A DNA stretch of 64,000 nt from Nonomuraea sp. NBC_00507 (lineage in GTDB: Bacteria; Actinomycetota; Actinomycetes; Streptosporangiales; Streptosporangiaceae), in NCBI RefSeq assembly GCF_036013525.1, contig NZ_CP107853.1:310001-374000 (forward strand), given 5' to 3'. Positions 24,216 through 35,706 of the stretch are shown piece after piece; the first letter of the stretch is position 1, and every line of letters starts with the position of its first letter. The notes below the pieces were generated by a model. That model was not told the origin of the DNA. It was given only the letters and a program-made list of their open reading frames with translations, and did not search any database. Made by a program: the position numbers and the translations under genes.

Positions 24216-24929
24216 TCAGTCCTGCAGGACGGTTGCCAGGCGTTCCTGGCGGAGGGCCTCGTAGCGGGAGTCGTCGAGCGGGGCCAGCTGCCCGGCCCGC
24301 CACGACAGCAGCAGGTCAGCCAGCGCGGGGTTGCGGGCCAGCGCCGGCCCGTGCAGGTATGTGCCGACCACGTGGCCCGCGTAGCAACCCTCGAAGCCGT
24401 CACCGTTCCCGACGCCCTTGATCGTCCTGGACAGCGGCCTGACGCCGGGACCCAGGTGGGTGACACCCATGTGGTTTTCGAATCCGGTCAGCGTCGGCAG
24501 GTTGAGCGTGGCGTCCACCTCGGCGACCAGCTCGCCCACCGCCCGGGCGGGGCCGCGGGAGCTGGCGATGTCGAGAAGGCTGATCCCGTCCACGGGCTGG
24601 CCTTCTTCGCCGCCGAACGTGCTTCCCATGATCTGGTAACCGGCGCACACCGCCAGCAGGGCGGCCCCGGAGGCGACGGCGCGGTGGAGGCCGCCGTCCT
24701 TGCGCAGGCGCTGGGCGGCCAGGATCTGGGGCCGGTCCTCGCCGCCGCCGATCAGGTAGATGTCGCCGCTCTCCGGGACCGGGTCCGCCGACCGTACGTG
24801 AATCGTCTCCGTCTGGATTCCCCGGCGCTGCGCCCGCTGCTCCAGGACGAGGACGTTGCCCTGGTCCCCGTACGTGCTCAGCAGGTCGGGATAGATCCAG
24901 ACGATGCGCAGGACGCTGTCAGACGGCAC
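24216..24929 (-). CDS. gatD: Lipid II isoglutaminyl synthase, glutaminase subunit GatD
   Basis: This is a 237-residue class I (CobB/CobQ-like) glutamine amidotransferase subunit that supplies ammonia to MurT. It has the catalytic cysteine in LLAVCAGYQIMG and histidine in GTYLHGPALARNP, plus an N-terminal strand VWIYPDLLSTYGDQGN typical of GatD. The GTG at 24929 overlaps murT by 11 bp. The MurT/GatD complex amidates the D-glutamate of lipid II to isoglutamine. Confidence 0.93.
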   Translation of the reverse strand: MPSDSVLRIVWIYPDLLSTYGDQGNVLVLEQRAQRRGIQTETIHVRSADPVPESGDIYLIGGGEDRPQILAAQRLRKDGGLHRAVASGAALLAVCAGYQIMGSTFGGEEGQPVDGISLLDIASSRGPARAVGELVAEVDATLNLPTLTGFENHMGVTHLGPGVRPLSRTIKGVGNGDGFEGCYAGHVVGTYLHGPALARNPALADLLLSWRAGQLAPLDDSRYEALRQERLATVLQD

Positions 24930-26148
24930 GACCGAACTCCGATCGGATCTGCTGGAAGGCGGTGTAGTTGGCGATCACGTCGACCCGGCCGGGCGGCTGC
25001 ATGGCCAGCGCCTCCGAGAACGTGTTGCACAGGGTGAACGGCACGTCCGCCACGTCGAGCCGGAGGGCCAGGTCGAGGCGGCGTTGGCCGGTGACGAAGA
25101 CGGGACGGCCGCGCAGGATGCGGTAGTCGACGTCCCACAACCAGGACGTGTCGCGGCCGTCAGGGCCTTGCGCGTTGACCGAGAGGATGATCGGCAGCTG
25201 CGGGTCGGCGACGTCGAACGCCTCCAGCCAGCCTGCCGGGTTTTTCGCCAGCAGCAGCCGGGCGTGGCGCCCTTCGCGCTCGACCGTCGTGTAGCGGCCG
25301 GCCACCGAGGTGACCTCGCGCAGCCGGGGCAGCGCTCGCTCCACCGGCACCCCGAACGCCTCCGCGACCGCCAGCGCCATCACCGCGTTGGAGCGGTTGG
25401 CCAGGCCGGGAAGCTGGATGTCCAGCTGCCACCGCTGCCCGCGCGGGTCGACGGCCACCTCGTCGTCCAGCGCCCACTGCGGCTCCGGCCGGTGGAACGT
25501 GCACTCGCGGCAGGCCCAGAAGGCGTCCTTGCGGTCGAGCGGGCCGCCGCACTCGGGGCAGCACCAGGAGTCTTCCTTCCACCGCTGCCCGCCGGCGACC
25601 CAGGTGACCTTGGCGGCCGTGGAGGCGCCCCAGGTGACGAGCGGGTCGTCGCAGTTGGCGATGACGTGGGTGGGCTTGCCCGACAGCGCCCTGCGCCACT
25701 TCTGGGCCAGCAGCCAGATCTCGGCTGCGCGGTCCATCTGGTCGCGGCTGAGGTTCATGAGACAGACGACGCCTGCGCCAGTCGTGTCGAGGACCTCGGG
25801 CAGGTATTTCTCGTCCACCTCCAGCACGCCGTAGGGGGCGGCCTTGTGCTGGGACAGCGCTGAGACGTGGCCGGCCGGCATGTTGGCGCCGAACGCGTTG
25901 GTCGCCACCTCGCCGAGCTCGAGCAGCGCCGAGGTGATCAGCCTGGTGGTGGTGGTCTTGCCGTTGGTGGCGCTGACCAGGGCCAGCTTGCGATCGTGGG
26001 CCAGCTTGCGCAGGAGGTCGGGCTCGAGCAACAGGCCGACCCGCCCGCCGATCACCGAGCCGTCGCCGCGCCCGGTCATCCTGGACAGCGTGGCGGCACT
26101 GCGTCCCAGGGCGCTGGCGAGCTGAGCCCGCAGAGGAAGCTGGGTCAT
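24919..26148 (-). CDS. murT: Lipid II isoglutaminyl synthase, Mur ligase subunit MurT
   Basis: This is a 409-residue Mur-ligase-like protein. It shows the ATP-binding ATNGKTTTTRL, the central ligase domain with VLEVDEKYLPEV, a four-cysteine zinc ribbon (CPECGG ... CREC) specific to MurT, and a C-terminal DUF1727 domain ending in FQQIRSEFGRA. It activates D-Glu of lipid II with ATP. Two in-frame ATGs (26148 and 26154) are possible; TAGGAT at 26157-26162 on the minus strand would place a leaderless transcript near 26148-26150, so I use 26148. It is in an operon with gatD. Confidence 0.93.
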   Translation of the reverse strand: MTQLPLRAQLASALGRSAATLSRMTGRGDGSVIGGRVGLLLEPDLLRKLAHDRKLALVSATNGKTTTTRLITSALLELGEVATNAFGANMPAGHVSALSQHKAAPYGVLEVDEKYLPEVLDTTGAGVVCLMNLSRDQMDRAAEIWLLAQKWRRALSGKPTHVIANCDDPLVTWGASTAAKVTWVAGGQRWKEDSWCCPECGGPLDRKDAFWACRECTFHRPEPQWALDDEVAVDPRGQRWQLDIQLPGLANRSNAVMALAVAEAFGVPVERALPRLREVTSVAGRYTTVEREGRHARLLLAKNPAGWLEAFDVADPQLPIILSVNAQGPDGRDTSWLWDVDYRILRGRPVFVTGQRRLDLALRLDVADVPFTLCNTFSEALAMQPPGRVDVIANYTAFQQIRSEFGRAV

Positions 26149-26263
26149 GCCCATGGATCCTAGTCGGCGTTGGCCACAACTCTGGAGACGCGCGCGTAAA
26201 CACGGTCTCGTTTGGCAGCCCCGGGTCGAACGCTCGCACCGGTGCGGGCGGGGCACCAACCCG

Positions 26264-29233
26264 TTACGGCAGCGTCGGGGAGGGCTCAGCGAAGGTGATC
26301 TCGGGGACGCCGCCGTGGTCGAACGGCAGGACGAAGCGCCGCGGCCAGGACAGCACGCCTTCCAGCCACCCGGCCCCCATGGTCTGCCCCACGTGCCGGA
26401 TCCGGGTCGACGACTCGATGCCGATCGCGACGGTCGTGATGTCCCGCTGCACGCTCTCGTTCTCGTCGTCCCCCAAGATGACCCGCCAGGCCAGCGCCCG
26501 GTTGCGATCCACCTCCATCGACAGCGGGTGGTGCCGCAGCGCCTTGGCCCGATGGCCGAGCAGCTCCGTGTGCACCCGATCCACAGGGGCGGAGCCGTTG
26601 CCGTTGGGCGAGCGGAAGAGCGTGTACTCCATGGGCGGGGCGGGGTCACGCAGGTTCGGGGCGGGCCGGTCGTACGGGAAGAGCCTGTCCACCTCGTGCA
26701 GCCACCGCACCTGGGGGATGACCCACGACGCCCCAGGACGTTCGCCCCCGCCGTCGAGGCCCGCGAGCAGGCGTGTGGCCGTCTCCGCGGCCTTCTCGGT
26801 GAGCAGTGCGGGGTTGAACCAGGTGCGCAACGACCAGGCGCGGCGCTGCACCGCACGCTCGATCAGGGTGGCCAGGAGGCATTCGCGCCGCCGCGCCGGC
26901 AGGTCGGACCAGGCGGCGGACAGGGCGCGGGGCACTCCGGGGAGCGGCCGGTTGCTGACGTAGGCGAGGACGACGGTGTCGCACCAGATGCGCAGCCACG
27001 CCCAGTCCGGGGCGTCGGCGAGCACGTCCGCCTCGCGCAGCTCGACGAGCGTGCACGCCTGCCCGGTGTGGCACTGCGCGCCGCACGCCGCCGACCTGCG
27101 GCCCCGGATGGGCGGCGGAGGGCCGGGCAGGACCTTCTCCCTGGACTCGCCGAGCGGTACGCGGACCCGCAGGGGCCGGTCCATCCCGTCGGCGAAGACC
27201 GCGGCCGAGCCCGGCTGGAGCGAGACCACGTGCCGGGACTGCTCCTCGCTCAGGTTCATGGCGGCGCCGACGAGCTTCCTGTCGTCCTCGGCGGGCAGCC
27301 GGTGCACGACCTTGAGCGCGGTGTTCTTGACGACGTCGGAGACGAGCTTGGTGGGGATCTGCTCGGCCACGACGATGCCCTCGCCGTACGCCCTGATCTC
27401 GGCGAGCAGCCCGGCCAGCAGCTCCACGGCATGCGTGGAGGCCCGCCCGTGGCCGCGGTCGCGCAGCAGCCGGTGGGCCTCCTCGATCACGATGACGTGG
27501 CGCAGCTCGTGGGTCTTCTCCTTACGCGCCCGCATCCGCAGGTGCTCGACGATCCGGATGATCAGCGTGCCCATGAGGAACGCCTTGTCCTCGTCGTTGG
27601 CCACGTCCTCGATGGCCAGGACGACGTCGCGTTCGAGCAGGCCGCCGATGTCGGCGGGGTGGCCGCCCTCGAAGAAGCGCCCGGCCGAGCCGACTCTCAA
27701 GGACCGCAGCCGGAGCGAGATGAAGCCCTCGACGTCGGCCTGGACCTCGCGGCCGTACCCGATCTCCTTGATCACGTCCATGGCGTGCTGCTGGAGCTGT
27801 TCGAGGGTGGGGACGCTGGGCGGGACGTTGGAGCCGGGGATCGCGCCGCCGGTGACGACGTCCCAGCCGGTGGCCTCGTAGACGCGCTGCAGAGCCAGCG
27901 ACATGATCTGCGGGAACGGCTCCTCGGCGTCGAAGGCGGCCATGAACAATGCCCTCACCATGTCGATGTGGGCCTGGACCGGGTAGCCCGGCTCGGGTTC
28001 GAGCGGGTTGATGCTGAACGGCACGCCGTCCGGCGCCGACGGGTTGATCACGGTGACCGGCTCTTCGACGCGGCCGGCCATGGCGGCGTACTCGGACTTG
28101 GCCGGCTCGATGGCCAGCCACGGGATGCGTGCCCTGCTGAGCTGCTCCAGCAGGTGCCTGACCGTCTGCGACTTGCCCGAGCCGGTCGCCCCGGTGACGA
28201 ACGCGTGCCTGTTGAGGGTGGCCAGCGGCACCCGGAACGTCCCGACGCCCCGGTCCTGCCCGTCGAGGATCTCCCCCAGCTCCAGCTCGCCGCCCTCGGC
28301 CTCGGAGGTCACGTCGAAGAAGCCCGAGTCGAGGACGCGTACGCCGGGCACCTCCCGCCTGGGCAGCCCGGCCAGCGCCGCGAGCGCTCCCGCGGTGGCG
28401 GCGAACGGGGCGGCGGCGCCGTCGGCGGGATCCTGCATGGTGATCGCGAGAGCCTCCGACAGCGAGTAGACCGCGCCGTGCGAGCTCCGCAGCCGGTAGG
28501 GGTGGTGGCTCATCTCCACCGAGCCGACCAGCACGGGCGCGATCTGCCGCAGCTCGTCGGCGGTGGCCCCGCCGGCCAGCACCCGTACGTTCCAGAGCCC
28601 CGCCTCCCTGAACGCGTCCAGCTCCTGCATGCGCCGCTCGGCCCGCTCGGCGTCGAAACGGGAGCGCTCGGAGGCGTCTCCGTACTGCCTGAGCACGTTG
28701 AGCTGGGTACGCAGGTGCGCCACCTCGGCGTCCAGCAGGTCCGTCGGCTCGGCCACCACCAGCCACGCGAACGGCCGGGACATGAGCGTGACCAGCGTCG
28801 CCTCGAAGAGCGTCGGTCGCGTCAGCTCGTCGGGGTCGCCCTTCTCCCGGCTGCCCAGCGGCGGCGCCTGGCGCCCCGGGCACGGCGTCCACACCAGGTC
28901 GGCGAGGTCGGCCAGGTATTCGTCCGACAGCTGCACGCCCCGGGCCCCACCGGGGAACAGCAGCGGCTGCGGCCCGCTCGGGTTGCCTGGCGTGTCGGTG
29001 GCCCGGCGCGGCTGGCGCGGCGGCGACAGCGGGCCCGCGTTGGTGATGAGCTCGAGCGGCGCCCCGGAACCCCGTGACAGCCAGCCGATGACGAACGGCC
29101 GGTCGCGCTGTGCCGCCGACAACACGGCGGGCAGCACGGTGACGAAATCCCACTCCGCCGACGAGCTTCGCGAGGGCGCGGCGATGGACTGGATCCGGTA
29201 CCAGGGCCCGCTCAGCGAGACGCTCGGCTGCAT
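26264..29233 (-). CDS. HerA/FtsK-like ATPase, large
   Basis: This 989-residue protein has an N-terminal region (about 1-330) without a recognised domain, then a HerA-type P-loop ATPase core. Walker A is GATGSGKS at 348-355, Walker B VIVIEEAHR near 581-589, and an AEQIP sensor-like stretch follows. The AIEPAKSEY segment after Walker A is typical of HerA/DUF87 proteins. A cysteine cluster (CGAQCHTGQAC) and a long C-terminal domain follow and are unfamiliar. HerA-type ATPases pump or translocate DNA or drive secretion. It lies 77 bp downstream of a membrane partner on the same strand. The substrate is unknown. Confidence 0.82.
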   Translation of the reverse strand: MQPSVSLSGPWYRIQSIAAPSRSSSAEWDFVTVLPAVLSAAQRDRPFVIGWLSRGSGAPLELITNAGPLSPPRQPRRATDTPGNPSGPQPLLFPGGARGVQLSDEYLADLADLVWTPCPGRQAPPLGSREKGDPDELTRPTLFEATLVTLMSRPFAWLVVAEPTDLLDAEVAHLRTQLNVLRQYGDASERSRFDAERAERRMQELDAFREAGLWNVRVLAGGATADELRQIAPVLVGSVEMSHHPYRLRSSHGAVYSLSEALAITMQDPADGAAAPFAATAGALAALAGLPRREVPGVRVLDSGFFDVTSEAEGGELELGEILDGQDRGVGTFRVPLATLNRHAFVTGATGSGKSQTVRHLLEQLSRARIPWLAIEPAKSEYAAMAGRVEEPVTVINPSAPDGVPFSINPLEPEPGYPVQAHIDMVRALFMAAFDAEEPFPQIMSLALQRVYEATGWDVVTGGAIPGSNVPPSVPTLEQLQQHAMDVIKEIGYGREVQADVEGFISLRLRSLRVGSAGRFFEGGHPADIGGLLERDVVLAIEDVANDEDKAFLMGTLIIRIVEHLRMRARKEKTHELRHVIVIEEAHRLLRDRGHGRASTHAVELLAGLLAEIRAYGEGIVVAEQIPTKLVSDVVKNTALKVVHRLPAEDDRKLVGAAMNLSEEQSRHVVSLQPGSAAVFADGMDRPLRVRVPLGESREKVLPGPPPPIRGRRSAACGAQCHTGQACTLVELREADVLADAPDWAWLRIWCDTVVLAYVSNRPLPGVPRALSAAWSDLPARRRECLLATLIERAVQRRAWSLRTWFNPALLTEKAAETATRLLAGLDGGGERPGASWVIPQVRWLHEVDRLFPYDRPAPNLRDPAPPMEYTLFRSPNGNGSAPVDRVHTELLGHRAKALRHHPLSMEVDRNRALAWRVILGDDENESVQRDITTVAIGIESSTRIRHVGQTMGAGWLEGVLSWPRRFVLPFDHGGVPEITFAEPSPTLP

Positions 29234-29310
29234 ATTTCAATCCCCCACAGACGGTTTCTTTGTCAAACTCCGCCAACCGTCAGCTCGCCACGTCGTCATT
29301 GACCATGTCA

Positions 29311-31251
29311 TTACCTGTCCTTTCGCCAGTCCAGGCGTGGCGGTGGTGGCCCGAGGTTCGGCGGTGGCTCCCCGTCGCCGTCCCGCGCGTCGGGGTCGAG
29401 CGCCAGCACCGCCTCGCGTACGTCCTCGAGCTCGCCCAGCGTGGTCTTGGGGAAGGTGAGGATGGCGGGGTTGGCGTCGGCGAGGCGTACGCGCCTGCCC
29501 TGGGCCGTGGCGTCCGTGACGATCACCGAAGTGGTGGGCAGCTGCTGAAGCTGGTGCGGCTCGACGAGGAACTCGCGCGAGCGCTGCAGCACCCGTTCCT
29601 TCTCCGCGATCTTGTCGGCGCTCCTGCCCCACTCGGTGGACGCCGTGATGTCCTCGGCGAGGTCGGCGCTGCCCTCCTCGCGCTCCTCCCTGGCATCGTC
29701 CACCTGCGAGATCGTCGAGGTGTAGCCGCCGTCGAGGCCCGGCAGCGAGTCGCTGATCGTCTCGGTGAGCTGGGCCAGCTCCAGCCGGTGCTCGGTCCCG
29801 ACGTGCTCGCTGGCGACCCGCGCGTCCTCGGCGTTGCCCAGCCGCATGAACGCCACCGCCGCGTGCCCCCGGCCCAGACGCTCCCGGACAGTAGGGGTGA
29901 GCGACCGATAGGTCAGGACAAGTCCGGTACGGGAGGTCTCACAGGCATCCATCAGCCGATCGAGCACGTCGCCCCTGAGCTTGTCCGCGCCCGCCACGAT
30001 GATCGTGTGATACCAGGGCCGGTCGGAGGCCGGCGACTGGCGCAGGATGTGGGTGAGCGCGGTGGCCACGTACGTGCCGAGCACACGGTTGCCGAACACG
30101 CCCGCCTGCCGGTCCATGCTTACCACCCGCAGCCGCGCGGGCGGCAGGCGTACGGCCTGCGTACCGAGCGTTTCCAGCTTGCGCAGCTGGGACTCCAGCG
30201 CCCAGGCCCGCTCGATCACCACCCGGTCGCTCACCCCGCGCCCGAACAACGTCCCGATGCGCTCGAGCTGCGTCGCGGTGATCAGCCCGAACCGCAGGTC
30301 GTCCCGCGGGTCGCCCACCTGCGCCAGCGCCCGCAGCGCGGCCGTGACCTGGCTGATCGTGGCGTTGTCCCCGAGGACCTCCAGGACCCGCTCGAGGATG
30401 GCGTTGTCGAAGCTGAGGTCGCGGGTCGTGCGGTGCTCCTCGCTCACGCTCACCACATGCGCCAGCACGTCCGCGAACGCCTCAGGCTTCAGCGTGGCGC
30501 CCAGATCGAGCCGGGGTAAGTCGACCGGCAGCACCCAGACCAGCGGATCGTCACCGCCCTTGCGGGCCAGCTCGATCAGGTCCTTGGCGATCGCCCCCTC
30601 GGACAGGTCCAGCACGGTCAGGTGCCCGCCGCTGTAGAGCCGCGTGGCGCCGAGCAGGGTGACCAGCGCCGACCAGCCGGGCAACGTGCCGCCGGCCACG
30701 TCGATGCGGTCGATCTCGTGCGGTACGGCCACCGCGTACCACGTGAGCTGCTTGTCGTAACGCTCCTTGGACTCCTGCCACTCGCGGTAACGCTTGGCGT
30801 GCTCCTCCTGGGCGCGGAACAGCTCTTTGTCACGTTCCTGGCGCTGGCGCTGGTCCCTGGCCTGCTGCTCCAGCACCCGGTATTTGACCGCCCGATCGCC
30901 CTGCAGCAGCGCATAACTGCAGATCCCCGCCACCCCACCGGCCGCGGCCAGCGCGACGAGCGCGAACGGCCAGGCGAGGTAGCCGGCGACGGCCACGGCC
31001 AGGATGAGCACGCTCAGCGCCAGCATGAACAGCCGGAAGATCCGTACCGGCCGGTTGAGCAGATCCTCCTGGAGCCGCTCGCGGCGCATCAGCTCGATCT
31101 CGGCGGGGTCGGGCTCGGCGGTGGCCGGCTCGTCGGCCGGTGAGGGGCGTTTGGGCGGGGGTCCCGGGTCGGCGTGCAGCAAGATGTACTGCCAGCCCAG
31201 GTAGATGCGGTCCGCCTGCAGCTGGGCATGATCGGGATGCACGTCTGTCAC
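29311..31251 (-). CDS. Membrane-anchored degenerate VirD4/FtsK-like partner protein
   Basis: This 646-residue protein has two membrane helices (about 72-92 and 93-116), a charged coiled coil (about 120-168) and a large cytosolic domain. Parts of that domain read like a TraD/VirD4-type motor: TIIVAGADKL where Walker B is expected, GLVLTYRSLTPTVRERLG, and AVAFMRLGNAEDARVASEHVG. No Walker A is visible and the Walker B acidic pair is missing, so it is probably catalytically inactive. GTG 31251 has GGAGGGTCAC upstream. It likely anchors or regulates the HerA-like ATPase encoded next. The relationship is my reading by eye and needs structure comparison. Confidence 0.6.
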   Translation of the reverse strand: MTDVHPDHAQLQADRIYLGWQYILLHADPGPPPKRPSPADEPATAEPDPAEIELMRRERLQEDLLNRPVRIFRLFMLALSVLILAVAVAGYLAWPFALVALAAAGGVAGICSYALLQGDRAVKYRVLEQQARDQRQRQERDKELFRAQEEHAKRYREWQESKERYDKQLTWYAVAVPHEIDRIDVAGGTLPGWSALVTLLGATRLYSGGHLTVLDLSEGAIAKDLIELARKGGDDPLVWVLPVDLPRLDLGATLKPEAFADVLAHVVSVSEEHRTTRDLSFDNAILERVLEVLGDNATISQVTAALRALAQVGDPRDDLRFGLITATQLERIGTLFGRGVSDRVVIERAWALESQLRKLETLGTQAVRLPPARLRVVSMDRQAGVFGNRVLGTYVATALTHILRQSPASDRPWYHTIIVAGADKLRGDVLDRLMDACETSRTGLVLTYRSLTPTVRERLGRGHAAVAFMRLGNAEDARVASEHVGTEHRLELAQLTETISDSLPGLDGGYTSTISQVDDAREEREEGSADLAEDITASTEWGRSADKIAEKERVLQRSREFLVEPHQLQQLPTTSVIVTDATAQGRRVRLADANPAILTFPKTTLGELEDVREAVLALDPDARDGDGEPPPNLGPPPPRLDWRKDR

Positions 31252-31421
31252 GTGACCCTCCGGCCGCGATATGTCGTTAGGTGTAGGGGCCAGCCCTTAT
31301 CCGCTCCGTGACAGCGTATGAGCTTCAAGCCCTGAAGCGGCAGGGTTATCGGCAATTTCGACCAGCCCGATGGGAGCATTGCGGCAGATGGGACAAGCGA
31401 TACCTACTACCATCCTTTGCC

Positions 31422-32081
31422 ATGACGGAACCCTCCGGCGGCAGCACTGACAAGCCAAGACGCCCGGTAGTGGTGCCCGCACTGGCTCTGGTGGCGTTCA
31501 CGGCCGTCGGCATCACCGCTCTGCTGGGCGGACTCAACGAACGACCCGATCCCCCACCAAAGGCGCTCAATCCAGGGCAGACGCTCGACCAGGGGCAGTT
31601 CGACACCCAGGTCGTAGAGTCGAAGGTCATCGTGGAAAAGGCGGAGAACCAGTTCGCCGAGGACAAGCGCTACCTCGACGTGGTGTTCAAAGTGACGAAC
31701 AAGACCGACCAGACCGTCAGCGTGGGCGCCGTGCCCCACGACAAGAGCCGCGGCTTCTTTTTCGGCAGCACGTTGCTGAAGATGACCCCGCAGATCAAGA
31801 CCGAGTTCGGCCCCGACTTGTTCGTCCTGTCCAAGGGCGTCACCTCCCGCCAGCTGCATCCGGGCATTCAGTCCACGGTGGTCGCCCGCTACGAGCTCGA
31901 CGCGGCCACGCAACCGCCGAAGCAGGTGAGCTATGACATGGGCGCCATGGAGCACCACGAGAACCCGCTCACCGGCGTCAGCAATTGGTTCCTGGTCAGC
32001 GAGCCGGAGCTGCTCACCAACAAGCTAGAGAACAAGGTGGTCGCCAAGATCACCCTGTCCGTCGAGCCTCAGGGGGCGTGA
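31422..32081 (+). CDS. Single-pass membrane protein with exported beta domain (1 of 3)
   Basis: This 219-residue protein has a short basic cytosolic N-terminus, one helix (about 14-36, VVPALALVAFTAVGITALLGG) and an exported domain of about 180 residues with alternating strands, resembling the immunoglobulin-like DUF4352 group without a firm match. The ATG at 31422 is preferred; the in-frame GTG at 31308 adds codons with low GC3, unlike the gene. TACCAT ends 8 nt before the ATG. It is divergent from the ATPase partner gene and its stop overlaps the next start by 1 bp (TGATG). Function unknown. Confidence 0.65.
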   Translation: MTEPSGGSTDKPRRPVVVPALALVAFTAVGITALLGGLNERPDPPPKALNPGQTLDQGQFDTQVVESKVIVEKAENQFAEDKRYLDVVFKVTNKTDQTVSVGAVPHDKSRGFFFGSTLLKMTPQIKTEFGPDLFVLSKGVTSRQLHPGIQSTVVARYELDAATQPPKQVSYDMGAMEHHENPLTGVSNWFLVSEPELLTNKLENKVVAKITLSVEPQGA

Positions 32082-32737
32082 TGACGGCCACCCAGCAGCG
32101 CGCCGCGGCCCCGCGCCGCAACCACAACCGCAGACAGGGCGCTCGTCGCGGCGGCTCGGGCTCCCGCGTCGTGCACATCGTCGCGGGCCTGATCCTGGTC
32201 GCCGGGGCGGTGGCCATCCAGTCGCTGGCGCTGTCGGCGGAGGACATGGGCATGCCGCTCACTTACACCGGCGTCAAGGGCCAGGACGTGGACGCGGGGC
32301 GGTTCTCCGTGCGCGTGCAGAAGGTCACCTCGGCCAAGGCGCTCAAGGTCGAGAACAAGAACGTCCCGACCGAGCAGATGTTCCTGGTGGTGGAGGCCGC
32401 GGCCACGGTGCCCGCCGAACCCGTGCACCTGGGCATGCCGAGCCTGCTCGCGGCCGACGGCAAGGTGTACGCCGCGAGCGACAAGATCGACAAATCCAAG
32501 ACTCTCGCCAACCCGTGGATCCAGCCGGGCTGGTGGACCACGGGCCGATTCGTGTTCGAGGTGCCGGCCTCGGCTCTGCCGGGCGCGCAGGCCGTGTTCC
32601 AGCTCCCGGTCTCCGGCCTCTACAGCGAGCCGCTGCCTCCGGAGGCGCAGATCGACCTCGGCATCGACGACGCCACCGCCAAACAGCTCACGACCGCGCC
32701 CGCAGCCGTCTTCGACCTGGACGAGAAGAAGAAGTAA
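32081..32737 (+). CDS. Single-pass membrane protein with exported beta domain (2 of 3)
   Basis: This 218-residue protein has a basic N-terminus (about 1-30, many Arg), one helix (VVHIVAGLILVAGAVAIQSLAL, about 31-52) and an exported beta-rich domain with a Trp-rich WIQPGWWTTGRFVFEVP segment. The pattern of an early FSVRVQKV strand and a late FVFEVPASAL strand resembles the neighbouring proteins and DUF4352 domains. ATG 32081 overlaps the previous stop. Function unknown; it is presumably made together with its two neighbours. Confidence 0.65.
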   Translation: MTATQQRAAAPRRNHNRRQGARRGGSGSRVVHIVAGLILVAGAVAIQSLALSAEDMGMPLTYTGVKGQDVDAGRFSVRVQKVTSAKALKVENKNVPTEQMFLVVEAAATVPAEPVHLGMPSLLAADGKVYAASDKIDKSKTLANPWIQPGWWTTGRFVFEVPASALPGAQAVFQLPVSGLYSEPLPPEAQIDLGIDDATAKQLTTAPAAVFDLDEKKK

Positions 32738-32741
32738 GGCC

Positions 32742-34397
32742 ATGACCAGGAACGACCCGAGCCGCGACTGGTTCGCCCCACCTCCCGGCCAGCCCGACCA
32801 ACCGCCCGAGCCCGACCAACCGCCGCAGCCCGACCGACCGGCCGACTCCGGCCGGCACCACCAGCAGGCACCGCCGCCGTACGGCCGGTCGGCGCACTCT
32901 GGGCAGCAACCGAGCCACGGGCAGCCTCCCCCAGCGGGGCCGCCATCCCAGCACGACGACCATGGGCATTCGCCGCAATACGGCCAGCCCTCGCAGCATG
33001 GGCAACACCCGGAGTACGGGCAACCTTCACAGCAGGGGCGGCCACCCCAATACGGCCAGCCACCGCAATACGGGCAACCCGCCCAGCACGGCCAGCCACC
33101 GCAGCATGCACGGCCACCGCAGTACGGCCAGCCACCAGAGCATGCACGGGAGCCCCAGTACGGCCAGCCACCGCAGCACGGACAGCCGTCACAGTACGGC
33201 CAGCCACCGCAGCACGGGCAGCCGTCACAGTACGGCCAGCCGCCACAGCAAGGGGAGCCTCCGCAGCACGGGCAGCCCCAGTACGGCCAGCCACCGCAGC
33301 ACGGACAGCCGGCCCAGTACGGCCAGCCACCGCAGCACGGGCAGCCGTCACAGTACGGCCAGCCGCCACAGCAAGGGGAGCCTCCGCAGCACGGGCAGGC
33401 CCAGTACGGCCAGCCACCGCAGCACGGACAGCCGGCCCAGTACGGCCAGCCTCCGCAGCACGGACAGCGGCCGCAGGGTGGCAGCCCTTCACACCCTCAG
33501 CCGCGCCACGGCCAACACCGGCAGCAGCCGGCTCCCGGCCCCAGGATGCCGCCGCGCCGCGGCCCGGATGCCTTCCCGGACCAGCAGGTGTGGCCCCCGG
33601 CGTCGCAGTCCGAGCCCGTCGGCGGCGCCACGCAGCCCTTGCCCGTCGTCCCCGGTGGACCCGGGAATCCGTTCGCCGCCCCCGGCGGGCCCGCGAATCC
33701 ACCCTCCGCCCCCGGCGGGACGGCGCACCCCTCAGCCGCGCCTGGCGGAGGCGCGCCCCCAACTGTGCCGTCCCCCGCGTTCACGCCGCCGCAGCCGCCG
33801 GAAGCCCCCTCTCCGGCCGCGGAGGAGCCCACGCCGCGCAAGCCGCGCACCCTGCTCCTCGGCGTGAGCGCGCTCGTGGCCTTCGTGCTGGCCTTGGGCA
33901 TACCGACCGGCGACCATTATCTCTTCTTCAAGAGCGGCCAGCCCGACGACATCGTGCACGAGGTCCCCAAGGGTCAGGAGAAGGCCTTCGAGCACGTGTC
34001 ATGGAAGACCTCGATCGAGCCCATGGTGCCCGCGCCGAGCAACACCACGCCCGACAAGCAGTGGCTCAAGATCACCATCACCAGGAAGGCCCTCGACGAC
34101 ACCGGCAAGGTGCTCACCGCCAAGCCGGAGCTGTTCCTGCGGGACAAGCAGGAGCGCACCTGGCAGGTGGAGGTCATGGAGGACAACACCCCGGTGGGTG
34201 AGGACGGTGTGGTCGGCAAGCCGTACTCGTTCACAGCAGGGGCCGTCGTACCCAAAACGGTGGCCGGCGAGGTGGAGCTGCACCTGAGACCGAACACCAC
34301 CTACCGCTCCGACACCCCCACGGACAAGCTCCTGGAGATCAAGCCGGAGGAAGAGGAGAAGGCCAAGCACAAGGACGTGCTGGTGTTCAAGCGGTGA
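32742..34397 (+). CDS. Pro/Gln-repeat cytosolic tail, one helix and exported domain (3 of 3)
   Basis: This 551-residue protein has a very long disordered N-terminal tail (about 1-365) made of QPPQHGQ/SQYGQ-like repeats and then Pro/Ala-rich sequence. One membrane helix (about 367-388, LLLGVSALVAFVLALGI) follows, then an exported domain of about 160 residues with HVSWKTSIEP, AKPELFLRDKQ and ELHLRPNTTY strands. The tail includes a 41-residue internal duplication. It resembles the other two proteins of the set from the helix onward. Its end overlaps the convergent polytopic gene by 11 bp. The Tyr/Gln/Pro repeats could drive condensate formation or serve as an assembly platform. Confidence 0.7.
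   Translation: MTRNDPSRDWFAPPPGQPDQPPEPDQPPQPDRPADSGRHHQQAPPPYGRSAHSGQQPSHGQPPPAGPPSQHDDHGHSPQYGQPSQHGQHPEYGQPSQQGRPPQYGQPPQYGQPAQHGQPPQHARPPQYGQPPEHAREPQYGQPPQHGQPSQYGQPPQHGQPSQYGQPPQQGEPPQHGQPQYGQPPQHGQPAQYGQPPQHGQPSQYGQPPQQGEPPQHGQAQYGQPPQHGQPAQYGQPPQHGQRPQGGSPSHPQPRHGQHRQQPAPGPRMPPRRGPDAFPDQQVWPPASQSEPVGGATQPLPVVPGGPGNPFAAPGGPANPPSAPGGTAHPSAAPGGGAPPTVPSPAFTPPQPPEAPSPAAEEPTPRKPRTLLLGVSALVAFVLALGIPTGDHYLFFKSGQPDDIVHEVPKGQEKAFEHVSWKTSIEPMVPAPSNTTPDKQWLKITITRKALDDTGKVLTAKPELFLRDKQERTWQVEVMEDNTPVGEDGVVGKPYSFTAGAVVPKTVAGEVELHLRPNTTYRSDTPTDKLLEIKPEEEEKAKHKDVLVFKR
33171..33412 (+). repeat. 123-bp internal tandem duplication
   Basis: A unit of 123 bp (41 codons) is repeated, seen for example as AAGGGGAGCCTCCGCAGCA recurring 123 bp apart. 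It encodes two near-identical 41-residue blocks of the QPPQHGQ/QYGQ type inside the tail of the preceding gene. Confidence 0.75.
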
Positions 34398-35706
34398 TGT
34401 CCTCGCCCTGCAGCCGCGCCCTGGTGGCCGCGATGTCGAACGTCGCGGCCAGCACGGAGTAGGCCAGGACGGTCACCACCAGATCCTTGACGAACTCGAC
34501 GGGCCGGCTGACCACGAGCCACATGTACGGCACGTCGGAGCCGATGAGCGTGTTGACCACCCGCTCCAGGTAGTCCGCGCCCACGTGCAGCCCGACATAC
34601 AGCAGGCACATGAGCCCGAACAGCGTGATGCCGCCCTTGACGGTGATCCTGAAGGCGTTGACCACGGGCACCCAGCGCTCCTGGAAACCGCCGATCAGCC
34701 GGTCCGTGGCCCGCTGGGTGAGGTCGTGGCTGCCCTCCAGCCGGTCCATGCCCCGCTCCAGCCGGGTGCCGCGCAGCGCCCTGCGGGTGTCGTCAACCGT
34801 GCCCCCGAAGACCAGCACCGCGATCGCCAGCCAGGTGAGCGGCACGGCCAACGCCTCGATGACGTGCGGCCAGACCTCGCCCACCCATTTCCAGAAGGCT
34901 TCCCAGCCGGGCACGTTCTCCTTGGCGTGCTCCCACGCCTCGCTCGCGCCTCCCACGACCGCCCGATGGGAGGCCCAGTCCTCGCGTGCCTTGGTGACGG
35001 TGAAGATGGCGTTCAGGCCGCAGAACACGAACGCGAACTCCGAGAACGCGGCGGCGATGCCGGAGAACCTGCCCTTGCTCTTCTCGACGAGGTGGCCGAA
35101 GAGCATGCGCATGCAGAAGGTCACGATCATGGCGCCGAGCGAGACCCGCCAGTCGAGGCCGACCAGACCCATCCCGTACGTGACCTCTTCGTTGGTCCCG
35201 TTGGCCAGGTTGTTGAGGATGGGTGTGTAGAAGTTGTCGTCCAGGTTGTGGAACTGGTCCATCGACAGGAAGTCGGAAGCGTCCTTGAGGTAGAGCTCCC
35301 AGGCCAGGTAGACGAGCGCGAAGGAAGGGGCGATCCGGTTGAGCGACACCCAGAACGGCTCGTCCTCCTGCCCATCCTGCTGACGCGCCCGCGTCTCCCA
35401 GAGCACCCGGCGCAGCGACAGGAACATGCCCGTGATGACGGTCATGGAGATCAGGATCACCACGGTCATCAGCGCCAGGGTCACGATCAGGCGGACTTGC
35501 CTGGCGCTCCCGTGCGAGATCTCCGTGGCCGCGTAGAGGAGCGCCCAGCGGGTCAGCTCGCCCGCGGAGAACCACAGGATCAGTGGCAGCGCGCACTTCC
35601 CCGCGAGGCGTAGTGCGTGCAGGGGCAGCGAGTACGGCGAGGGCATCCGCTGAGCCGGCGTGGGCCCTGGTTGGGGCGGCGCCATCACACCTGTCGAACC
35701 GGACAT
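34387..35706 (-). CDS. Polytopic membrane protein of unknown function
   Basis: This 439-residue protein has about six or seven membrane helices (roughly 35-60, 71-97, 120-142, 185-210, 300-322, 370-395 and 405-430) and a cytosolic stretch with charged residues near 330-355. The start is the ATG at 35706 because TACGAT lies exactly 7 nt upstream (leaderless); the longer frame to 36156 runs through the neighbouring XRE-cupin gene. It is convergent with, and overlaps by 11 bp, the Pro/Gln-repeat gene. I do not recognise a family. Context suggests it is part of the 26-36 kb membrane/ATPase block. Confidence 0.65.
   Translation of the reverse strand: MSGSTGVMAPPQPGPTPAQRMPSPYSLPLHALRLAGKCALPLILWFSAGELTRWALLYAATEISHGSARQVRLIVTLALMTVVILISMTVITGMFLSLRRVLWETRARQQDGQEDEPFWVSLNRIAPSFALVYLAWELYLKDASDFLSMDQFHNLDDNFYTPILNNLANGTNEEVTYGMGLVGLDWRVSLGAMIVTFCMRMLFGHLVEKSKGRFSGIAAAFSEFAFVFCGLNAIFTVTKAREDWASHRAVVGGASEAWEHAKENVPGWEAFWKWVGEVWPHVIEALAVPLTWLAIAVLVFGGTVDDTRRALRGTRLERGMDRLEGSHDLTQRATDRLIGGFQERWVPVVNAFRITVKGGITLFGLMCLLYVGLHVGADYLERVVNTLIGSDVPYMWLVVSRPVEFVKDLVVTVLAYSVLAATFDIAATRARLQGEDITA

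Follow-up and report, generated by a model that had tools for sequence, protein, structure and literature searches.

A two-gene core of HerA-family ATPase and P-loop-less membrane partner in Nonomuraea and other actinomycetes, with a possible link to polymorphic toxins

What does an unfamiliar block of six genes in Nonomuraea sp. NBC_00507 do, and do all six belong to one machine? The block occupies positions 26264-35706 of the window, the 64,000-nucleotide stretch studied here (positions 310001-374000 of contig 1 of the 12.9-Mb genome), where all six open frames described in an earlier note on this DNA are present. That note placed an active HerA-type ATPase beside an inactive motor-like subunit and regarded the exported proteins of the block as an envelope channel or stalk. 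Comparison across genomes indicates that the core is two genes, the ATPase and its membrane partner, and that three single-pass proteins and one polytopic protein are a later add-on. In other genomes the pair has a link to polymorphic-toxin-like genes, missed in the earlier note, which is the first real clue to its possible function. The reading favored here, with a probability of about one half, is that the pair would form a two-component membrane machine composed of a HerA motor and a dead-motor anchor, the sister branch exporting polymorphic toxins and the Nonomuraea copy being toxin-less and acting on another envelope substrate.

Conservation of the Gene Pair

The ATPase gene (26264-29233, minus strand, 989 amino acids, ATG start) has relatives across the class, and its start lies 77 bases from the end of the partner gene (29311-31251, minus strand, 646 amino acids, GTG start). 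In a survey of 296 genomes of the class, with E ≤ 1e-3 for the partner and E ≤ 1e-30 for the ATPase, the partner is found in 51 and the ATPase in 34, both occurring together in 32 (Fisher p 3e-27). The two ATPase-only genomes hold distant matches (E 1.9e-37 and 3.9e-47), and one of the 32, G218, carries its two matches on separate contigs. Among 59 genomes searched, the 35 that belong to the same genus all have the ATPase, with the partner beside it in 20 of 20 loci fetched in the genus, own included. At the level of the phylum the partner is rare (6 of 296 genomes, with E as weak as 1.5e-4 and 5.7e-4 in two).

Thirty-eight fetched regions and the window give both genes in 24 cases, the partner alone in 13 and the ATPase alone in 2, and most of the surroundings of the pair change between families. 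A larger set of 80 named loci and three plasmid loci, found by either protein, contains the partner in 75 of 83; in four of the eight loci lacking it (L132, L136, L140 and L165) the ATPase lies within ~2 kb of a contig end. The search for related loci used the ATPase alignment, the partner alignment being without a conserved stretch. Paired distances of the two proteins correlate with r = 0.91 over 95 pairs, compared with ≤0.07 in 1000 label permutations. In the distant loci the ATPase is counted 100 times, the partner 92 times and the next gene family 13 times, and no third general component was found among the gene families of these loci. The pairing of an active-looking ATPase with a P-loop-less membrane protein is thus borne out, the two being kept together across many actinomycete families with parallel divergence.

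The remaining four genes form a nested set. Single-pass protein 1 is present in 11 of the 296 class genomes, all of which hold the ATPase and the partner. The polytopic protein has matches in 37 genomes, and those with strong ones (E ≤ 1e-98) are exactly these 11. The co-occurrence of the six genes stands insofar as the block recurs beyond chance, nested in these 11 genomes, and falls insofar as the full set is restricted to one sub-clade. The single-pass proteins are absent from most loci with the pair and so cannot be a necessary part of the machine, which weakens the proposal of an exported channel or stalk. The six-gene machine as first proposed is rejected, four of its six genes being confined to one sub-clade.

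Cargo Genes of the Sister Branch

A tree of 108 ATPases, built by a quick method and containing one long outlier (L088), places the window in a clade of 15 rows (Shimodaira-Hasegawa-like approximate likelihood ratio test, SH-aLRT, 100), 12 of which lie beside murT, separate from a second clade of 92 rows (SH-aLRT 97), referred to here as the sister branch. Forty-four rows carry a toxin label assigned by position rather than by domain, and 43 of these are in the sister branch; the remaining one, L169, is a mislabel, its gene being unlike cargo. The label changes 3 times on the tree compared with 15.1 times in shuffles.

The term cargo is used for the gene that follows the ATPase at a distance of up to 120 bases in the same orientation, with statistics taken from locus L070 onward. 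Such a gene overlaps the ATPase gene in 21 of 41 cases, 16 of them by 4 bases. Some or all of the cargo sets exclude by hand the murT-type genes, the genes taken to be DUF1361-like (a name assumed here for the gene after the ATPase in some sister-branch loci), the near-copies L072 and L089, and loci L074, L075, L076, L141, L166, L170 and L173; L141, L166 and L173 were kept in the composition and end-swap set though unlike cargo. The sets used for pair scores and hydrophobicity add four second-position genes and keep only those of at least 140 amino acids, giving 45 genes that differ from the 45 scanned with Pfam.

On plasmids of Streptomyces clavuligerus, S. antimycoticus and Nocardia sp. NBC_01377 the gene order is partner, ATPase, cargo, with the cargo being an ADP-ribosyltransferase (ADPrib_exo_Tox), a RelA/SpoT-type protein and a 725-amino acid protein, respectively; the genes that go with them are, in that order, a small gene, an HD-domain gene and an ankyrin gene. 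Beyond the plasmids, a first scan finds toxin-type domains in 9 of 20 slot proteins, and a further 22 yield two calpains, one RHS repeat (1.6e-71), one Scabin-like protein, one ADP-ribosyltransferase and one YwqJ. The C-terminal domains include Endonuclea_NS_2 (7e-23), a papain-fold glutamine deamidase (6e-15), a zeta toxin (1e-38) and a YwqJ-type deaminase (5e-7), and calpain-type proteases are the cargo of L131, L144 and L147. Below cut-off are RelA/SpoT (26.0 bits, cut-off 27; RelA_SpoT is found twice among the cargo, below cut-off) and a barnase-type Ribonuclease (21 bits, cut-off 24). The domain ends 2-32 residues from the cargo C terminus in nine of ten cases, the zeta toxin ending 111 residues from it. 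In the genome of L114 an RHS frame has a fitting place, strand and length, the contig match being putative.

The genes directly behind the cargo include immunity-type families. Thirty-two of these next genes were scanned and give Imm49 and DUF6406 three times each, nucleoside hydrolase, HD_4 and MORN twice each, and ankyrin and barstar once each. The barstar match (66.7 bits; genome G095, contig 17, 52408-52656) falls on the gene that immediately follows the barnase-type cargo in L086 and is the only barstar match in that genome at E ≤ 1e-3. In L098, L100 and L108 the gene next after the cargo matches Imm49, and L160 has tandem paralogues that are 36% identical. These placed barstar and Imm49 matches firm up the link to toxins. 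RHS cages and barnase-barstar pairs are features of exported toxins.

Comparison of closely related loci illustrates that the cargo end is exchanged where the ATPase is kept. For L086 and L126 the agreement is 90% in the ATPase, 67% in the cargo start and 19% in the cargo end; for L147 and L148 it is 91, 25 and 2%; and for L099 and L102 it is 95, 95 and 11%, where L099 is perhaps a broken or mis-called frame. The starts are rich in proline, glutamate and aspartate (summed median 0.39 in 40 genes, compared with 0.17 for 1018 other genes from these loci). Of 956 cargo-start pairs with unrelated ends, 125 reach a score of 45, where 40 shuffles give 49 on average and 68 at most, indicating that the starts are probably in part alike beyond composition. 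None of the 45 cargo genes has a hydrophobic stretch within the first 45 residues, and therefore none has a Sec-type start; two have one transmembrane (TM)-like stretch further in. Taken together, the sister-branch cargo appears polymorphic-toxin-like, with an acidic, proline-rich start, a swapped C-terminal toxin domain and an immunity-type gene behind. Available passages of PMC12691689 describe signal-less Streptomyces alarmone synthetases beside immunity genes and "type VII" or TrwB-like components, and some of these loci could be of the same kind as L092 and L102 under another name.

The copies on large Streptomyces and Nocardia plasmids can also be viewed as marks of a DNA motor, in which case the pair would move DNA across the membrane (in conjugation, in uptake or in moving the chromosome into spores) and the toxins would be passengers or addiction modules of mobile copies. 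HerA motors move DNA, and the best NCBIfam match of the ATPase is CedD, a DNA-translocating ATPase (E 1.1e-18; 67 bits, cut-off 600). A VirB4/TraC-like gene, recognized by eye, is beside or near the partner in L068 and L069, both ATPase-less, which also argues against the export reading, and the gene that follows the ATPase in N. soli (L170) and in a Nonomuraea-type genome (L074) is SNase-like, likewise by eye. However, neither relaxases nor type IV families turn up repeatedly near the pair, whether among the gene families of the distant loci or among the best 25 of 126 Pfam families in the flanks (150 proteins drawn from 335 flank genes, of which 137 were scanned); of 19 plasmid records that contain the partner, 16 are classed as non-mobilizable and 3 as mobilizable; and the cargo starts have a common address-like tail. 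The Nonomuraea genome contains no PF12696 coupling protein at E ≤ 1e-8. Movement of DNA is regarded as distinctly improbable. L068 and L069 also keep other genes in common near the partner.

Two further gene families recur around the pair. A probable endonuclease V family lies between the cargo and the partner gene in Frankiaceae (L086, L089, L126 and L133); the putative family is seen in six loci, and Endonuclease_5 matches two flank proteins among the best 25 of 126 families. An M48-type membrane protease gene (HELGHH), whose product could process cargo, is beside or near the partner in L072, L083, L131, L147, L148, L150 and L152, recurring in Streptomyces/Actinomadura loci only.

The HerA-family ATPase

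The 989-residue protein matches HerA_C (34.3 bits, cut-off 22) and DUF87 (31.3 bits, cut-off 23.2) in Pfam, and its Walker A motif GATGSGKS (residues 348-355, 28169-28192, minus strand) and Walker B segment EEAHRLL (residues 584-590, 27464-27484, minus strand) are each found in 108 of 109 homologues. The intact Walker motifs reported earlier are thus confirmed. In an alignment of 48 sequences Gly-348 to Gly-351 and Gly-353 to Ser-355 are invariant, and three cysteines after the motor part (Cys-717, Cys-721 and Cys-727) are nearly so; a looser regular expression for the cysteines matches 40 of 107 ATPases, the spacing being variable. A single alanine-rich TM-like stretch is present at residue 272 of the window protein, and across the family 81 of 107 members have none, 19 have one and 7 have two. 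The best sequence matches in the structure database are solved HerA-type chains. On these matches the ATPase is assigned to the HerA/FtsK superfamily and looks active.

Among the best matches of the ATPase are also the PADLOC mad8 and HerA models, for which PADLOC gives no cut-off, and the NCBIfam HerA_antiphage model (45.9 bits against a cut-off of 800); membership in the latter is rejected on score. An origin in phage is likewise rejected, with only 2 of 50,697 phage records matching the ATPase, at 30-31% over ~36% of its length.

Far below curated cut-offs where these are given, the antiphage models nevertheless accompany the main rival to export, a defence against invaders in which the ATPase would sense or grip foreign DNA at the membrane and free a toxin effector against the own cell, the next gene being its antitoxin. 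Wider plasmid HerA relatives lie in defence-like operons, which counts against the export reading, an ABC three-component system lies close by in one plasmid locus, a handful of flank proteins are hit by models for AbiEi, methyltransferase or other defence functions (among the best 25 of 49), and an alarmone synthetase with an HD gene is also a known toxin-antitoxin layout. Set against this are the C-terminal toxin cassettes swapped behind a common start and the presence of RHS and barnase-barstar, a pattern known from exported polymorphic toxins. In addition, the flanks are mixed, the commonest Pfam family accounting for 4 of the 137 flank proteins (among the best 25 of 126 families), and the Nonomuraea ATPase, a core gene in the genus genomes searched and with the partner at its side in every locus fetched, is unlike most defence genes. 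Defence is considered unlikely on the whole.

Two of the plasmid relatives have defined operons. A Lactococcus plasmid (L206, 1-8560) has two dynamin-family genes, two unknown genes, the ATPase relative and an HNH endonuclease on one strand, a defence-like arrangement, and an Acinetobacter plasmid (L205, 4388-15137) has a WYL regulator, a HerA-type ATPase and six unknown genes (two large) on one strand, possibly a defence system.

The Membrane Partner

The earlier note described the 646-residue protein as having two helices and a motor-like domain without Walker motifs. Two TM-like stretches are present at residues 67 and 86 and there is no P-loop, so that this part holds; the motor-like domain is suggestive and is not significant in free searches. 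In the family (109 members) 70 proteins have two TM-like stretches, 22 have three, 14 have one, 2 have none and 1 has four. No Pfam family matches the partner at E ≤ 1. The pattern G-x4-GK[ST] occurs in 1 of 112 homologues, and there elsewhere in the protein, with GGTLWSW in the place of the P-loop.

In the alignment of 23 sequences the segment GGTLPGW (residues 187-193, 30673-30693, minus strand) is at the expected Walker A place, with tryptophan replacing the lysine. Gly-188 is invariant, Gly-192 and Trp-193 are nearly so, and the strict form GGTxxGW is found in 53 of 112 homologues. The partner GGTLPGWS lies opposite the ATPase GATGSGKS with equal spacing to the next strand (28 residues to the Glu/Asp, hand-counted on the alignment), and GADKL lies opposite EEAHRL. 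When the profile scores are centred, the diagonal through the P-loop comes out at rank 4-9 among ~570,000 windows and that through Walker B at rank 35-390; without centring the scores are weak (z 1.1-1.8). The partner profile matches the coupling protein TrwB among solved structures at E 0.095, over a C-terminal stretch only that includes the partner segment VEP-x2-LQ-x-LP, and an MBP-huntingtin fusion (0.004), MuB (0.012) and a designed protein (0.071) rank above it. Alignment of partner and HerA or coupling-protein profiles with hhalign gives no match, and the true positive pair of HerA and type IV coupling protein failed too. The aligned motifs suggest a dead motor, and descent from a motor is held as likely, though the statistics are mixed.

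The names given to some partner homologues in UniRef, "type VII secretion protein EccE" and in one entry "TraD/TraG TraM recognition site", would instead make the pair a variant of type VII or type IV secretion stripped of its usual partners, and the TrwB match, subject to the ranking above, points the same way. In the passages of PMC3482391 at hand, the ATPases of type VII secretion likewise combine live with dead motor domains. However, EccE, FtsK_SpoIIIE and TraG give no match in the partner, either at E ≤ 1 in 23 members or at E ≤ 0.1 in 10 proteins, and an EccE/type VII identity is rejected by these profile tests. Of 188 small genes near the pair, 6 have a mid-protein W-x-G and none is WXG100-like (motif scan, by eye), and the motor and the membrane part are two separate genes. 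Such a variant has very little probability.

The partner also occurs apart from the ATPase. In 15 genomes of the own family it is present without an ATPase at E ≤ 1e-30, and in the 11 ATPase-less loci examined (L057-L067) it is again beside murT-gatD-type genes; six of these partners placed in the alignment still have no P-loop, and one locus, L058 of genome G218, has its ATPase match on a different contig. The database entry P0339, which bears the name Mycobacterium tuberculosis, is close to Actinomadura partners and probably comes from a mislabelled sample.

The Nonomuraea Branch

The ATPase of the window is directly followed by murT-gatD-like genes at 24216-26154, named from sequence rather than from a profile search, and the link to murT-gatD holds in Streptosporangiaceae and some Thermomonosporaceae. 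The Nonomuraea pair belongs to this fixed, toxin-less branch. On the other side of the pair, the partner gene on the minus strand and the first small gene on the plus strand diverge from a common upstream region (31252-31421), a layout that recurs in L053-L055, L073, L074 and L076.

Three single-pass proteins, each with one TM-like stretch, are encoded on the plus strand. Protein 1 (31422-32081, 219 amino acids) has a weak DUF5067-like match (18.7 bits, cut-off 27), and protein 2 (32081-32737, 218 amino acids), whose start overlaps the stop of protein 1, has a weak DUF4352-like match (15.2 bits, cut-off 25.9). Protein 3 (32742-34397, 551 amino acids) is formed by a long N-terminal repeat tail rich in Pro, Gln, His and Tyr, a TM-like stretch at residue 367 and a C-terminal domain. 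The three had been called similar; what they have in common is the layout, whereas alignment of one family with another fails (hhalign probability <1%). The last protein (34387-35706, minus strand, 439 amino acids) is polytopic as described, with six TM-like stretches, and its gene overlaps that of protein 3 tail-to-tail by 11 bases. Protein 3 and the polytopic protein have no Pfam match, and for the five non-ATPase proteins NCBIfam and PADLOC give nothing near cut-off. The statement that the set resembles no described system is upheld, with no secretion, conjugation or defence family over cut-off except the general HerA, DUF87 and neighboring ATPase models of Pfam.

Discussion

The observations are best accommodated by the two-component membrane machine, in which a hexamer of the ATPase would be the motor, docked on a ring of partner subunits. 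The partner would anchor the ATPase to the membrane, its ATP-free motor-like domain serving as a docking platform, and the two helices of each subunit, 12 in the ring, would form or gate a path through the membrane. The substrate would be protein rather than DNA: cargo may be fed into the motor by its disordered acidic, proline-rich start acting as an address label, and in the sister branch the machine would export polymorphic toxins from the cell. In Nonomuraea the same motor most likely acts on an envelope substrate together with the three outside-exposed proteins and the polytopic protein, and the surface proteins may replace or receive that substrate.

Several observations weigh against this reading. 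The partner occurs without the ATPase (E ≤ 1e-30) in 19 of its 51 class genomes, where it does something without this ATPase. A toxin-type domain is recognized in ~15-17 of the 45 Pfam-scanned cargo candidates, and 49 of the 92 sister-branch rows have no positional toxin label (44 unlabelled and 5 DUF1361-like). No toxin gene is in the slot of the window branch, a murT-type gene following the ATPase instead. Many RHS genes are present on other contigs of the L114 genome and so are not special to the pair. For the dead motor the statistics are mixed: at three window sizes the P-loop score is equalled after block shuffling of the profiles in 6, 9 and 17 of 30 trials, a coupling-protein profile run on 193 partner proteins gives reversed decoys about the same scores as the real sequences, and free searches are not significant. 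No wall-crossing component is known for the proposed exporter.

Held more tentatively than the machine itself is the fuller proposal of a new actinomycete protein-export system of two dedicated parts, which would ship polymorphic toxins by their acidic, proline-rich start and of which Nonomuraea and its relatives would keep a tamed, fixed form with its own surface proteins. No description of the pair was found in the literature searched, preprints and most subscription journals being outside its scope, and the novelty is provisional; the available parts of PMC12839542, PMC7159879, PMC10853773 and PMC12857230 do not describe it. How toxins without a Sec signal or a WXG/LXG domain leave Gram-positive cells is an open question, and an exporter of this kind would add a route beside types IV and VII. 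The toxin-immunity pairs of Streptomyces, Frankia, Amycolatopsis, Nocardia and others would find their place with it, and it would be a clear example of a membrane ring made from a dead copy of its motor.

The ATPase has in common with the HerA/FtsK superfamily, including archaeal and antiphage HerA, the P-loop core, the Walker A and B motifs and the HerA_C/DUF87 models, and differs in an N-terminal part of ~330 amino acids and a C-terminal part with the three nearly invariant cysteines. Its companion is a membrane protein rather than NurA or a nuclease. The partner resembles the type IV coupling proteins TrwB/VirD4/TraG in its two N-terminal TM helices and perhaps in its fold, and is unlike them in the missing P-loop and Pfam match and in the negative decoy test. 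Type IV secretion differs further, as a VirB4-type gene is seen, by eye, only in the ATPase-less L068 and L069, and no channel or relaxase family recurs near the pair among the gene families of the distant loci and the best 25 of 126 flank families.

Type VII secretion exports polymorphic toxins in Gram-positive bacteria according to the parts of PMC3482391 and PMC11217815 available, and its EccC/EssC has a membrane-anchored FtsK/HerA-type motor with dead and live domains (same sources and extent); here the membrane part and the live motor are separate proteins, with no WXG100-like gene and no Ecc match. Polymorphic toxin systems as presented by Zhang et al. 2012 (PMC3482391) have, in the trafficking-table passages at hand, no route by a HerA motor with a membrane partner. 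The cargo start described here is an acidic, proline-rich tail in place of WXG, LXG, PAAR or a signal peptide, and the likeness to those systems, on the same passages, is in the common start, the swapped C-terminal toxin and the immunity gene behind it.

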